This document shows positions 245 to 6,669 of a stretch of 25,510 nt of DNA, one piece after another (within the stretch, counting starts at the first letter, position 1; the number at the start of each line of letters is the position of its first letter). Both the position numbers and the translations under genes were made by a program. The stretch is from a virus: the IMG/VR virus record IMGVR_UViG_3300017739_000095, positions 1-25,510 of that record; one strand, given 5' to 3'. The notes under the pieces are model-generated. The model saw nothing but the letters and a program-made list of their open reading frames with translations, did not search any database and was not told where the DNA came from.

Positions 245-899
245 AAATGGGAGTACCCCAGAGGAGAGAAGAAAAGTATTACCAGGATATCCAAAAGATT
301 TAGTTTTTAAAAACTATGAAGAATATAAACAATATTTTGTTGGTGATAGAATTATTTGTTTGTTATGTGGCAAGCATTATAGATCACTTGGAAACCATCT
401 TAGAGTATCTCATGAAACCACGGTTGAAGATTACAAAAAAAAGTACGGTATATTATGGGGTAAATCATTAATATGTAATGAATATTATGAAATACGATCA
501 AAAGAAGCAAAAAAGACGATTGCTAATGGTAAACTAATTCCTCAAACTCTTGAGGGTAGGAGAAAACTAGCAGAGCTAGCTCGTAAATCAAAAAGAAAGC
601 CAAGAAATTTAAAACTTCATAAAGTTTCATCTCAAGATAATATTAAAAAATATAACAATTTACACGGATTTGATGGAAGCATAACTAAAGAAAAAGAAAA
701 AAATAGAACAAAAATTGGTACACCAGAATTTAAGAAAAAAATGGCAGAAAGACCTCAGTGTAATTTTTTTGGAGAAAAAAATAAATATTTTTGGATAGGA
801 AAAAAACAGACAGAAGAGCATAAAATGAAAAAATCAGAAGCTATGAAAGCTTACCATCTAAACTTAAAAGAGAAGAAAAAAAATGAAAGATCAACCTAA
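228..899 (+). CDS. Ros/MucR-type zinc-finger protein with NUMOD3-like C-terminal motif (homing-element type)
   Basis: The 223-residue protein carries a C2H2-like zinc finger at residues 44-62 (C44, C47, H57, H62), followed by a VEDYKKKYGI stretch, as in the Ros/MucR family of DNA-binding proteins. Near the C-terminus (about 185-207) the pattern GKKQTEEHKMKKSEAMK resembles NUMOD3, a DNA-binding motif of phage homing endonucleases. I see no HNH or GIY-YIG catalytic motif. It may therefore be a DNA-binding regulator or a homing endonuclease relative that has lost its nuclease. I chose the ATG at 228 because AAGGAGGA at 211-218 lies directly upstream. An earlier in-frame ATG at 162 has no such site. 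The gene is very rich in A and in Lys codons compared with the polymerase gene it overlaps by 17 nt, which may mark a separate origin. Confidence 0.65.
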   Translation: MPNFFKNGSTPEERRKVLPGYPKDLVFKNYEEYKQYFVGDRIICLLCGKHYRSLGNHLRVSHETTVEDYKKKYGILWGKSLICNEYYEIRSKEAKKTIANGKLIPQTLEGRRKLAELARKSKRKPRNLKLHKVSSQDNIKKYNNLHGFDGSITKEKEKNRTKIGTPEFKKKMAERPQCNFFGEKNKYFWIGKKQTEEHKMKKSEAMKAYHLNLKEKKKNERST

Positions 900-2760
900 C
901 TGGTTTCCTAAAGTACATCGCATGCCAAGTGAATGGGTTATGCCTGATCACTTTCCTGATTTATCTGAGTATGATGAGATAGCTATTGATTTAGAAACAC
1001 GTGACCCTGGTATTAAAGATAAAGGACCAGGTTATATTCGCAAGGACGGAGAAGTAGTTGGTATTGCTGTAGCAGTAGAAGGGTGGAGTGGATACTATCC
1101 TATCGCTCACGACACACCACCTAACATGGATAAAGCAATTGTATGCAAATGGTTAAAGAAACAATGCTCCTACGAAAATAAAAATTATATTTTTCATAAT
1201 GCTTTTTATGATGTGGGCTGGTTAAAGACGCTTGGTGTTGACATTAAAGGTAAAATAATAGACACTCTTATTGCTGCACCACTCGTAGATGAGAATAGGT
1301 TTAGATTTGATTTAAACACATTAAGCAGAGATTATCTACAAGAGTCAAAATCTGAAGCCCAACTATACGAGGCAGCAAAGATGTGGGGCCTTGATCCCAA
1401 AGCAGAACTATGGAAGCTACCTGCTTCTCATGTTGGTGAATATGCTGAACAAGACGCAGCCGTTACGCTACGCTTGTGGAATCACTTACGCACAGAAATA
1501 ATTAAACAAAATTTAACAAACATTTTTGAGCTAGAAACAGACCTATTTCCAGTTTTATTTGACATGAAACAAAAGGGCGTTAGGGTCGATCTCGAAAAAG
1601 CAGACAAGATAAAAAAAGATTTACAGAAAAAAGAAAATGATATTCTTCGATCCATTAAAAAGCTTACTAACATTGACGTCGAAGTTTGGGCTGCTGCCAG
1701 CGTTGCAAAAGCGTTCCAGAAGCTTAACCTGGACTTTGATACTACACCAACGGGGAAACCAAAGTTTGACAAAAACTTTCTTGCTACGCACGAAAGCCCG
1801 CTGGCCAAAATGGTTGTTGAATGTCGAGAGATTAATAAAGCGAGAACCACGTTCATCGATACGATCCTCAAGCATTCGTACCGTGGGAGGATTCATGCTG
1901 AGATACACCAGATGCGATCAGACGAAGGTGGAACGGTAACAGGTAGATTCAGTTACAGTAATCCTAATTTACAGCAAATACCAGCACGGCACGCTATTCT
2001 CGGCCCACTGATCAGAAGTATATTTATACCTGAGAAAGATTGTGAATGGGGTATATTTGATTACTCTCAACAAGAACCACGTCTAGTAGTGCACTATGCT
2101 AATCTAAAAAATTACATGGGTGCAAATAAGTTTGTTGATTCTTATCAAGAAGATGACACAACAGACTTTCATCAGATGGTATCTGAACTTGCTGACATAC
2201 CACGTAAGCAAGCAAAGACAATTAATCTTGGTTTGTTCTACGGTATGGGTAAAGGTAAGTTGATGTCCCAACTAGGCGTGGACCAAGAAACAGCTGAAGA
2301 TTTGTTAGCTGGTTACCACGAGCGTGTACCCTTTGTTAAAAAATTAATGATGGATACAATGCGTAAAGCTGGTGACAAAGGTTTTTTATCGACGATAGAA
2401 GGTAGACGGTGCCGTTTTGATCAATGGGAGCCCGTAAATGAGTGGGGCAAGAAAGCACTACCACTAGCAGAGGCTCAACGTGAATACGGCGAACATATGA
2501 TTAAAAGAGCTTGGACATACAAGGCTTTAAATAGATTAATACAAGGATCTGCTGCAGATCAAACAAAGAAAGCAATGCTTGAGTTATACAAACAGGGCTA
2601 CATGGCGCACATACAGGTACATGATGAACTTGATTTTTCTGTTGCGAATGAACAGGATAAGAATAATATTAAAGAGATCATGGAACAAGCAATTACATTA
2701 GAAGTGCCAAACAAAGTAGATGTAGAATGTGGTGATAACTGGGGCGACGCTGGTGACTAA
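883..2760 (+). CDS. polA: Family A DNA polymerase (DNA polymerase I-like) with 3'-5' exonuclease domain, Leu762 type
   Basis: This 625-residue enzyme replicates the phage genome. The N-terminal half is a DEDDy 3'-5' proofreading exonuclease: Exo I has D36 and E38 (IAIDLET), Exo II N106 and D110 (FHNAFYD), Exo III Y187 and D191. The polymerase half has motif A DYSQQEPR (D393), motif B RKQAKTINLGLFYG (R441, K445, Y453) and motif C HDE (580-582). All catalytic residues are present and the length suits phage PolA without the 5' nuclease domain. The residue equivalent to E. coli Phe762 in motif B is L449. In virioplankton surveys the residue here (Phe, Tyr or Leu) separates polymerase classes, and Leu is linked to slower, more accurate synthesis. 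The ATG lies inside the preceding gene in an AGAGAAG-rich context. Confidence 0.97.
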   Translation: MKDQPNWFPKVHRMPSEWVMPDHFPDLSEYDEIAIDLETRDPGIKDKGPGYIRKDGEVVGIAVAVEGWSGYYPIAHDTPPNMDKAIVCKWLKKQCSYENKNYIFHNAFYDVGWLKTLGVDIKGKIIDTLIAAPLVDENRFRFDLNTLSRDYLQESKSEAQLYEAAKMWGLDPKAELWKLPASHVGEYAEQDAAVTLRLWNHLRTEIIKQNLTNIFELETDLFPVLFDMKQKGVRVDLEKADKIKKDLQKKENDILRSIKKLTNIDVEVWAAASVAKAFQKLNLDFDTTPTGKPKFDKNFLATHESPLAKMVVECREINKARTTFIDTILKHSYRGRIHAEIHQMRSDEGGTVTGRFSYSNPNLQQIPARHAILGPLIRSIFIPEKDCEWGIFDYSQQEPRLVVHYANLKNYMGANKFVDSYQEDDTTDFHQMVSELADIPRKQAKTINLGLFYGMGKGKLMSQLGVDQETAEDLLAGYHERVPFVKKLMMDTMRKAGDKGFLSTIEGRRCRFDQWEPVNEWGKKALPLAEAQREYGEHMIKRAWTYKALNRLIQGSAADQTKKAMLELYKQGYMAHIQVHDELDFSVANEQDKNNIKEIMEQAITLEVPNKVDVECGDNWGDAGD

Positions 2761-2959
2761 AATATTTTTATTAGTTGTTAGTTTGTGGGGCTTCAATGGA
2801 TCAGTGTGGGTATACACAGGAAATCAAATGGTATACCAAGAAAAATTTTACGATTTAAAAATATGTCAAGATATGGGTAGAAAATTTATGAAGTATGATA
2901 TGAATAAATATTTTACATTTAAGGTACAATGTATTGAAGATACTGAAACTAATACTTGA
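2753..2959 (+). CDS. Small protein with N-terminal hydrophobic segment (68 aa)
   Basis: The frame ends at TGA 2957-2959. The likely start is GTG at 2753, which overlaps the polymerase stop codon region and gives an N-terminus MTKIFLLVVSLWGF typical of a signal peptide or membrane anchor. A GTG further upstream at 2729 would place eight polar residues before it. The rest contains two cysteines (in KICQDMG and KVQCIED) that could pair if exported. I do not recognise a family. Its stop codon is embedded in the -35 box of the next promoter. Confidence 0.6.
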   Translation: MTKIFLLVVSLWGFNGSVWVYTGNQMVYQEKFYDLKICQDMGRKFMKYDMNKYFTFKVQCIEDTETNT

Positions 2960-2984
2960 CTATCCCATTAAATTAGATTATATA
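2956..2984 (+). promoter_or_regulatory. Sigma-70 promoter P1
   Basis: The -35 box TTGACT (2956-2961) and -10 box TATATA (2979-2984) are separated by exactly 17 nt. Read in the alphaproteobacterial style, this is CTTGAC-N17-TTATAT. It overlaps the stop codon of the previous gene and would drive the structured leader and the small-gene operon from 3193 on. Confidence 0.85.
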
Positions 2985-3192
2985 CACAATTAAATGAGAA
3001 CATTGCAAGGTTCTCAGAGTATGGCTGAACAACTGTAACAAGGTAGTAAGGCACACTTGAGGGGAAGTACGGACAAGTGTCTGAGGTAACCAAGGGTGGT
3101 ACTGAAGTACTCGTTAACTTTTATAGGTTGATTTGTCGGGAAAAGGTTGGGGGTAGTCAAAGAATCCCCCTACTCACAAGAAGGAGAAAGTA
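2985..3192 (+). ncRNA. Structured 5' leader, candidate regulatory RNA
   Basis: About 208 nt without a convincing ORF lie between promoter P1 and the next start codon. Stems visible by eye are TGAGAAC (2995-3001) with GTTCTCA (3010-3016), ACACTTG (3053-3059) with CAAGTGT (3074-3080), GTAC-TGAA-GTAC (3099-3110 region), and GGGGG (3149-3153) with CCCCC (3166-3170). The last stem ends 10 nt before the AAGGAG ribosome site at 3181-3186. There is no U-run, so it does not look like an intrinsic terminator. It could be a riboswitch-like leader, a translation attenuator or a free small RNA. I could not match it to a known RNA family. Confidence 0.5.
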
Positions 3193-3525
3193 ATGACTGT
3201 ATTAAAAAAAGACTACGAAGCTGTATTTAAAGAAGGCTTCAAGCTTGGTACTAGACTAGCTAGGGCCAAGATAAATTTAATGCGTGCTAATGATTCACGT
3301 ATGCTTGGTGATGAACCTATGATGGAGCATTACAAAGAGTATGCAGAAACATGGACGAAGCTTGCTCGTAATTGCGGGCGTAAGTTTACACCACCCACGG
3401 CCCACTCACTTAGTCAACCATCAATTGACCTTGGTGATGTTGAGTTGTTGAGTCATAAGTACGATGATAAACCAGAGGATGAAGATGGATATCAAGAAAT
3501 TCAAGTCGGTGGCAGTAGCAATTGA
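3193..3525 (+). CDS. Hypothetical protein (110 aa), first gene of the small-gene operon
   Basis: The ATG at 3193 is preceded by AAGGAG (3181-3186), a strong ribosome site. The first 75 residues look helical with mixed charge (KKDYEAVFKEGFKLGTRLARAK) and include HYKEYAETWTKLARNCGRKF. The C-terminal 35 residues are acidic and probably disordered (DDKPEDEDGY). No signal peptide, membrane segment or catalytic motif is visible and I do not recognise a family. It directly follows the structured leader, so whatever that RNA senses most likely controls this gene first. Its 3' end overlaps the next gene by 41 nt. Confidence 0.75.
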   Translation: MTVLKKDYEAVFKEGFKLGTRLARAKINLMRANDSRMLGDEPMMEHYKEYAETWTKLARNCGRKFTPPTAHSLSQPSIDLGDVELLSHKYDDKPEDEDGYQEIQVGGSSN

Positions 3526-6179: not shown

Positions 6180-6376
6180 CAAATTATAGAGAGGGAGTTA
6201 TGAGCCCTGTGAAAATGTTACAAACTATTTCTGGTATTTGTAAGACCAATGGTAAGATTGATTGGAACAACACTGGTCAGACACCAGAAGATGAGTTTAG
6301 GTTTATAGCTAATATGATAGATACTTATCTTGAAGATCAAGACAAGGGCAGTGAGGGTGCAAATCAAGATGACTGA
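6176..6376 (+). CDS. Hypothetical protein (66 aa)
   Basis: AAGGAGGA lies 11 nt before the ATG, and the start overlaps the previous stop by 4 nt. The product has a helical core (SPVKMLQTISGICK and EFRFIANMIDTYLED) and an acidic tail. No family recognised. The strong ribosome site and tight overlap support it as real. Confidence 0.7.
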   Translation: MTNYREGVMSPVKMLQTISGICKTNGKIDWNNTGQTPEDEFRFIANMIDTYLEDQDKGSEGANQDD

Positions 6377-6494: not shown

Positions 6495-6595
6495 TACAAA
6501 TTGTGTTATTGTTGTTTGTAATACTCTTTGCCATGCATTGGAAAATTGCATTAATAGTTTTTGGTTTTATATATTATTTTGGTTGGCCCTTCTGA
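6491..6595 (+). CDS. Tiny membrane protein (34 aa)
   Basis: The ATG at 6491 overlaps the previous TGA (ATGA). The product is almost entirely hydrophobic, with one or two short membrane spans (IVLLLFVILFAM and IALIVFGFIYYFG). Its TGA at 6593-6595 shares two bases with the first two bases of the tRNA gene. No family recognised. A very small phage membrane peptide is plausible. Confidence 0.45.
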   Translation: MIQIVLLLFVILFAMHWKIALIVFGFIYYFGWPF

Positions 6596-6669
6596 TCCCA
6601 TAGCTCAGATGGTAGAGCAATTCACTTTTAATGAATGGGTCGCAAGTTCGAGCCTTGCTGGGATCGCCA
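6594..6669 (+). tRNA. tRNA-Lys (anticodon TTT)
   Basis: The 76-nt gene folds into a complete cloverleaf. The acceptor stem is GATCCCA (6594-6600) with TGGGATC (6659-6665), the D-stem GCTC/GAGC, and the anticodon stem ATTCA (6620-6624) with TGAAT (6632-6636). The anticodon TTT is at 6627-6629, the T-arm reads GCAAG-TTCGAGC-CTTGC, the discriminator is G, and CCA is encoded. The identity is lysine, reading AAA and AAG. An extra Lys tRNA suits this AT-rich genome, whose late proteins use AAA heavily. Confidence 0.97.

Follow-up and report, generated by a model that had tools for sequence, protein, structure and literature searches.

A manA-like structured RNA at a predicted sigma70-like promoter in relatives of HTVC023P-type pelagiphages

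Introduction

In a 25.5-kb virus record of IMG/VR (IMGVR_UViG_3300017739_000095; its complete stretch of 25,510 nt is referred to as the window), a 208-nt leader at positions 2985-3192 separates the DNA polymerase gene from a row of small genes, which is followed by terminase-like and structural-like genes. From the letters alone, this leader had been proposed to be a new regulatory RNA which either controls an operon of small zinc-finger and DNA-binding proteins or represents an independent phage small RNA. The locus raises the question whether a real RNA is encoded here, to which known RNAs it is related and whether it serves the gene behind it or acts by itself. The major capsid protein of the window is 72% identical to that of HTVC023P, 65% to that of HTVC027P and 70% to that of 023Pt_psg01, and judged by sequence the manA-like RNA described below is carried by relatives of HTVC023P-type pelagiphages. 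A published description of this RNA was not found in the literature searched, and a word search within PMC9599517 gave no match. A single-copy RNA with changing downstream genes and in either orientation would mean that an unexplained family, so far regarded as cis-regulatory, can be put to the test as a phage RNA that has its own function.

Sequence Sampling and Models

A scan of IMG/VR for the conserved core yielded at least 119 stretches, which are not a random sample. Among the matches listed, 137 places comprised 90 distinct stretches of 230 nt and 86 distinct complete cores including that of the window; these 86 sequences, termed type I, form alignment A1. Canonical manA loci were gathered with a pattern of their own, and 95 sequences among the matches listed were aligned, likewise a non-random sample. 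Scans for two core variants gave 39 and 10 further stretches, some of them false. The false matches L285, L294, L309, L292, L301 and L322 were removed from the counts. The comparison between types used an alignment of 28 sequences, made up of 18 distinct ones of type II and ten of type I. Model R1 was built from type I sequences and model R2 from types I and II. Layout and orientation were tallied per locus, with overlapping contigs counted apart unless stated otherwise.

Structure of the RNA

As the comparison of relatives shows, the leader contains a real conserved RNA, composed of the predicted hairpin P1, a P2/P3 core, a P4-P5 arm and the hairpins P6 and P7, which are tied together by the pseudoknots PK1 and PK2 (Table 1).

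Table 1. Predicted features of the manA-like RNA and its surroundings in the window.
Feature	Position	Strand	Pairing or motif	Remarks
DNA polymerase gene	883-2760			upstream of the RNA
Sigma70-like promoter	2956..2984	+	TTGACT 2956-2961, 17 nt, TATATA 2979-2984	from sequence and comparison
manA-like structured RNA core	2990..3176	+		about 185 nt; manA model aligned to 2996-3180
P1 hairpin	2996..3015	+	2996-3001/3010-3015	5 of 6 pairs changed on both sides; 100% of cells paired
PK1, 5' strand	3017..3021	+	GAGUA, with 3171-3175
P2/P3 core	3024..3052	+	P2 3024-3025/3051-3052; internal loop UGAACAA/GUAAG; P3 3033-3035/3044-3046
PK2, 5' strand	3038..3042	+	ACAAG, with 3132-3136	in the P3 loop
P4 arm	3055..3097	+	3055-3058/3094-3097, 3061-3062/3090-3091	strongest covariation, held across types
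P5 hairpin	within P4 arm	+	3071-3074/3079-3082	loop contact 3069-3070/3077-3078
P6a	3110..3139	+	C3110-G3139, enclosing P6	C-G 70, G-C 16 of 86
P6 hairpin	3114..3131	+	3114-3119/3126-3131	97.5% of cells paired; two pairs changed on both sides
PK2, 3' strand	3132..3136	+	UUUGU, with 3038-3042
P7 hairpin	3149..3170	+	3149-3153/3166-3170 (GGGGG/CCCCC)	invariant in 86
PK1, 3' strand	3171..3175	+	UACUC, with 3017-3021
Shine-Dalgarno sequence	3181..3186	+	AAGGAG	from sequence
First gene 3' of the RNA	3193..3525	+		110 aa, function unassigned

In A1, which holds the 86 distinct relatives among the matches listed, 98.3% of the 3950 cells of 46 base pairs are paired, a count that leans toward the structure, as alignment and structure were drawn from the same sequences. 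Changes on both sides occur in 21 of the 46 pairs, and slid versions of the structure are at most 47.3% paired. Cells with double changes numbered 361 compared with 104 in shuffles, and none of 500 shuffles reached the observed value. Mutual information and pair counts support P1, P4, P5, P6 and the C3110-G3139 contact, with the strongest signal in the P4-P5 arm (columns 73-105, 84-95 and 85-94); P2, P3 and P7 are invariant in the type I sequences among the matches listed. Two of the P3 pairs differ between types yet are paired in 27 and 28 of 28 sequences. The neighboring pair 3070-3077 beside P5 is kept in 28/28 with three pair types, and its fit to the P5 loop is ambiguous. These compensatory changes, found with homologs from IMG/VR as had been proposed as a check, strongly support the original view of a structured, regulatory-type RNA.

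Of the four stems that had been read from inverted repeats, two hold (2996-3015 and 3149-3170): the repeats 2995-3016 and 3149-3170 are present and belong to the conserved helices P1 and P7. The letters also contain the repeats 3053-3059/3074-3080 and 3099-3102/3107-3110; read as helices, these are 73.0% paired in the 86 sequences versus 73.9% in shuffles. The stems 3053-3080 and 3099-3110 were rejected, being no better than shuffles and having bases that pair elsewhere. The view that the leader is made up of chance repeats without function could draw on its ordinary single-sequence folding energy (z -0.68). Energy folding alone is uninformative here and it is the comparison that reveals structure; covariation and conservation refute the chance reading, the probability of which is negligible. 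The claim that the leader lacks an ORF was borne out, since the longest plus-strand ORF overlapping the RNA has 38 aa from a GTG and no convincing ORF was found inside it.

Both pseudoknots had escaped the first inspection, as had the likeness to manA, and were found by comparison. PK1 is paired in 86/86 type I sequences and varies in two of them, one change being compensatory. PK2 (ACAAR/YUUGU) is complementary in 86/86 and occurs in four combinations, with G-C 60, A-U 15 and G-U 11 of 86 in columns 53-149 and A-U 77 and G-U 9 in columns 51-151. A link of the PK2 segment GUAACAAGGUA to a 16S rRNA motif was rejected, as the letters vary in relatives (GUCACAAAGUA) and form PK2.

Type II sequences provided an independent test of both pseudoknots. 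It is free of the structure bias of A1 because PK1 and PK2 had been fixed beforehand from type I. A distant member was detected by R1 in the complete genome 023Pt_psg01 (E 8e-9), which the scan with the manA model did not list. In 18/18 type II sequences PK1 and PK2 are both fully complementary with other letters than in type I (strands CUUUG/CAAAG, GCUU(U)G/CAAGC, AAGCG/CGCUU, AAGUG/CACUU and AAGAG/CUCUU), PK2 in three combinations; most of the type II PK1 pairings need one U omitted from the 5' strand. Pairing the strands across types gave at most 4/5 pairs for PK2 and 2/5 for PK1. The contact corresponding to C3110-G3139 is CCG/CGG in 16/18 and CCU/AGG in 2/18 type II sequences. Helices and pseudoknots are given here precisely enough for structure and binding work.

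Relationship to manA

An Infernal search against Rfam had been suggested as a check. At gathering thresholds it found only a tRNA in the window, and no manA in 27 homologous loci scanned. A permissive scan of 2900-3260 revealed an end-to-end match to manA (RF01745) at 2996-3180, covering model positions 1-192 with 38.0 bits and an E of 1.7e-8, and an identical scan of 12 homologous leaders matched manA in every case with 35.3-44 bits (E 4e-8 to 1.7e-5). A RAGATH-8 match (E 2.8) was regarded as chance. As the 38 bits lie below the gathering score of 55.2 and the relatives behave alike, the RNA lies outside RF01745 as curated. By sequence and predicted structure, it is a distant relative of manA, an orphan family of marine and cyanophage RNAs, so that the attribute "new" is justified only with respect to the curated family. 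In searches of whole records with RF01745, a match below the cut-off was obtained for four of five records holding a type I RNA, and such searches thus miss some copies.

The two RNAs share a hairpin on the 5' side close to the start of the transcript, PK1 as the link between the first and last parts, the P2/P3 core UGAA.AA with GUAAGG, P6 and the P7 hairpin GGGUA..AAUCCC, and both occur once per matching record. The manA core CUGAAUAA...GUAAGG and its terminal hairpin correspond to UGGCUGAACAA..GUAAGGC and GGGGGUA..AAUCCCCC in the window, where P1 and PK1 are likewise present. PK1, which carries a question mark by the discoverers of manA (PMC2864571), is supported by this analysis; it covaries also in the 95 canonical sequences among the matches listed (A-U 88, U-A 6). 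The order of elements in canonical manA is P1, PK1, core, P3, P6 and P7 as in the window type, and the middle differs: canonical manA has a central stem closing three hairpins, whereas the window RNA has P4 with the single hairpin P5, and additionally an extra segment, UUGUCGGGAAAAGGUU. Instead of PK2, canonical manA has a contact of the P6 and P7 loops (C-G 83, A-U 11 of 95 among the matches listed). In columns 155-191 of the canonical alignment the inner P6 loop CUGU covaries with the P7 loop ACAG, the alternative pair being AUGU/ACAU; this contact is absent from the RF01745 structure line displayed by cmscan.

The different inner domain, the scores below gathering and the fact that R1 matches none of 15 canonical manA loci would suit a separate RNA class that resembles manA by convergence. 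We consider such a convergence very improbable in view of the common order of elements and of the end-to-end matches with E of 1e-8 to 1e-5 in 13/13 leaders scanned (the window and 12 others). Moreover, R2 matches one of the 15 canonical loci, that of S-CREM1, at the exact place, though only with an E of 0.023. Type III sequences (L289 and L296) were found by R2 at E of about 1e-15 to 5e-16, and L297 is weakly matched by both models (manA E 0.0018, R2 E 0.0099).

In S-CREM1 (L155), manA lies between two tRNA genes, within 2 nt of tRNA-Leu and touching tRNA-Asn, and is hardly a 5' leader. RNA C and RNA D of phage T4 are stable phage RNAs with unassigned function and are likewise located in a tRNA cluster. 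Further phage-borne structured RNAs near small genes are the wcaG and glnA/downstream-peptide RNAs of cyanophages, of which wcaG was observed in S-CREM1; these families gave no match to the window in the Rfam scans.

Promoter and Downstream Genes

Comparison shows that the predicted 5' end of the RNA lies just after a sigma70-like promoter, and transcription would start near 2990. A -10 hexamer with at least five of six identical positions is located 4-16 nt before P1 in 45 of 72 unique upstream regions among the matches listed, compared with a mean of 9.4 and a maximum of 20 of 72 in shifted controls. To speak of a consensus promoter, as was done initially, overstated the case, since TTGACT-17-TATATA is absent from the list of the single-sequence scan; a promoter at this site is supported by the comparison. 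The strong ribosome site that had been noted is present before the ATG at 3193.

A cis-acting leader, either a riboswitch or a protein-bound RNA, would gate translation of the operon behind it. We give this reading clearly less than an even chance; for the window's type it is quite possible. It agrees with the ribosome site 5 nt downstream of the 3' strand of PK1 and with the start codons, which in 81 of 88 type I contexts among the matches listed follow the RNA within 60 nt, mostly 15-24 nt, as for a cis leader; this spacing counts against a free RNA, and compact phage genomes may account for it. The Rfam type label of manA is Cis-reg, and Weinberg 2010 (PMC2864571) rates manA "Y" as cis-regulatory and "y" as a switch. 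On the other side, the stretch between RNA and gene varies among relatives and takes part in none of the conserved pairs found; a translational control in which the ribosome site is hidden was rejected, since this site was seen to take part in no conserved pairing.

The genes behind the RNA also speak against a cis leader. Among the matches listed, the ORFs following the RNA fall into 23 blastp clusters, i.e., about 20 unrelated and mostly domainless small families, a tally in which 9 of 137 places lack an ORF or a 3' end and some ORFs are second genes behind a first start without clear ribosome site. Such unrelated genes are not the coherent regulated set of a riboswitch. The RNA of the window is indeed a leader, as had been proposed, but an operon of zinc-finger and DNA-binding proteins does not describe what follows it in relatives, and the zinc ribbons in the window are weak Pfam matches below cut-off. 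The product of the first gene has no match in PHROG, Pfam or the phages collection, and its family comprises 40 loci in IMG/VR. After exclusion of 13 of the 40 loci with too little DNA before the gene, 20 unique contexts of this family were obtained, 17 with the RNA and three in which the ribosome site immediately follows a promoter. The RNA and this gene family are separated by other DNA or genes in 9 of 40 type-A contexts, and there the RNA remains at the promoter. Three layouts were found, with the RNA after the polymerase gene, 2-2.7 kb before the gene of the terminase small subunit or divergent from the latter. One copy of the core pattern was present in 18 of 20 records and none in the other two, which likewise counts against a cis leader; canonical manA occurred once in 11 of 12 records (in both cases records from the matches listed). 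In the records searched, the comparison shows a conserved, manA-related, single-copy RNA that is tied to a promoter and not to a gene.

Two structural peculiarities were noticed between RNA and gene. The small-gene ORF of L047, L086, L091 and L130 is preceded by a second promoter-like sequence with a further recurrent structured leader behind it (GAATATTTTCATATATTCCTTCTGAGATGGGCGGTGATC...TTCACCGCCTAGATT), and in L004, L006, L074 and L110 long hairpins, perhaps mobile palindromes, are inserted before the ribosome site.

In many contexts the RNA starts right behind the -10 box; this and its independence of particular genes would also be expected of a 5'-terminal module that acts in cis on the transcript, by protecting its 5' end or by making RNA polymerase read through terminators. 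RNAs that cause the polymerase to ignore terminators are put of phage HK022 and EAR. Among the matches listed, 94 contexts of canonical manA included 26 with a terminator-like hairpin and seven with a tRNA right behind the RNA, which suits such a module and also the free-standing RNA proposed below. We nevertheless regard the module as unlikely, because each matching record has only one copy and inverted copies have no gene on the same strand to help. Behind many canonical loci (L168, L176, L194) there is a recurrent decorated terminator, ACCTAAGATGCAACT..AGTSGGGCAGATGGT with a T run, possibly a further element.

Inverted Copies and Proposed Function

In 023Pt_psg01 the RNA is encoded on the minus strand (about 10398-10201) in a gap of 408 nt, opposite to the annotated genes, which between 1 and 14371 all run on the plus strand. 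Together with this genome, nine inverted type II loci were found, eight of which have distinct RNAs. The eight further loci adjoin homologs of URG13066, and seven of them also URG13067 (L315: URG13066 only). Forward orientation was found in three loci, of which L284 and L313 have the same neighbors and in L319 the forward direction is apparent from one side only. In 9/9 inverted loci TTGAC(A/T)-17 nt-TATA precedes the RNA, which there has its own promoter and is followed by no same-strand gene, whereas in the window a gene starts 16 nt after the RNA core. A same-strand ORF of 50 aa about 200 nt beyond the RNA in L300 and L318 overlaps genes of the opposite strand and was taken as spurious.

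Copies in either orientation, the inverted ones with their own promoter, argue against a purely gene-specific riboswitch and for a free-standing RNA. The inverted loci are the strongest evidence that the RNA may have a use of its own; all are of type II, and for type I such a use would apply by transfer. A terminator-like hairpin before the ORF was present in one of 88 type I contexts among the matches listed, and a search behind the RNA of 023Pt_psg01 gave none, so that a free RNA would need processing.

The reading we prefer, to which we assign an even chance, is that of a single-copy pseudoknotted RNA which acts mainly by itself in trans and in the window is also a 5' leader. The RNA of about 185 nt (2990-3176) would be transcribed from the sigma70-like promoter, and a factor from the host or the phage would probably bind at the conserved P2/P3 internal loop. 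The RNA would at the same time lead the small-gene operon of the window, with a secondary or shared effect on it; cis leader and trans RNA may both be true at once. The independent phage small RNA, named as the alternative in the original prediction, is by reason of the inverted copies the better supported of its two proposals. More tentatively, and with slightly less than an even chance, we suggest that the whole manA superfamily (canonical and types I, II and III) consists of free-standing phage RNAs, one per genome, that would bind a factor of host or phage in trans during infection. They would then not be riboswitches, and leaders would be only one mode of their transcription.

With the window and with types I and II as queries, blastn searches of the phages collection (isolated or named phages) gave only 023Pt_psg01, apart from one weak and unrelated Bacteroides phage match in one search; HTVC023P, HTVC027P and DSL-LC04 matched neither R1 nor the manA model. 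In bacterial genomes there were two matches, one of which (L157) looks like coding sequence. The other, L156, is a window-like phage contig within the single-cell genome of the uncultured alphaproteobacterium AG-910-K03 and gives a hint at the host. A tRNA-Lys(TTT) is encoded at 6594-6669 (+) of the window and a tRNA-Lys also in L156; tRNA matches were likewise obtained in L003, L006, L010 and L014. In L289 a freshwater-2 RNA (RF02980, 65 bits; 6263-6349) lies about 0.5 kb after the type III copy.
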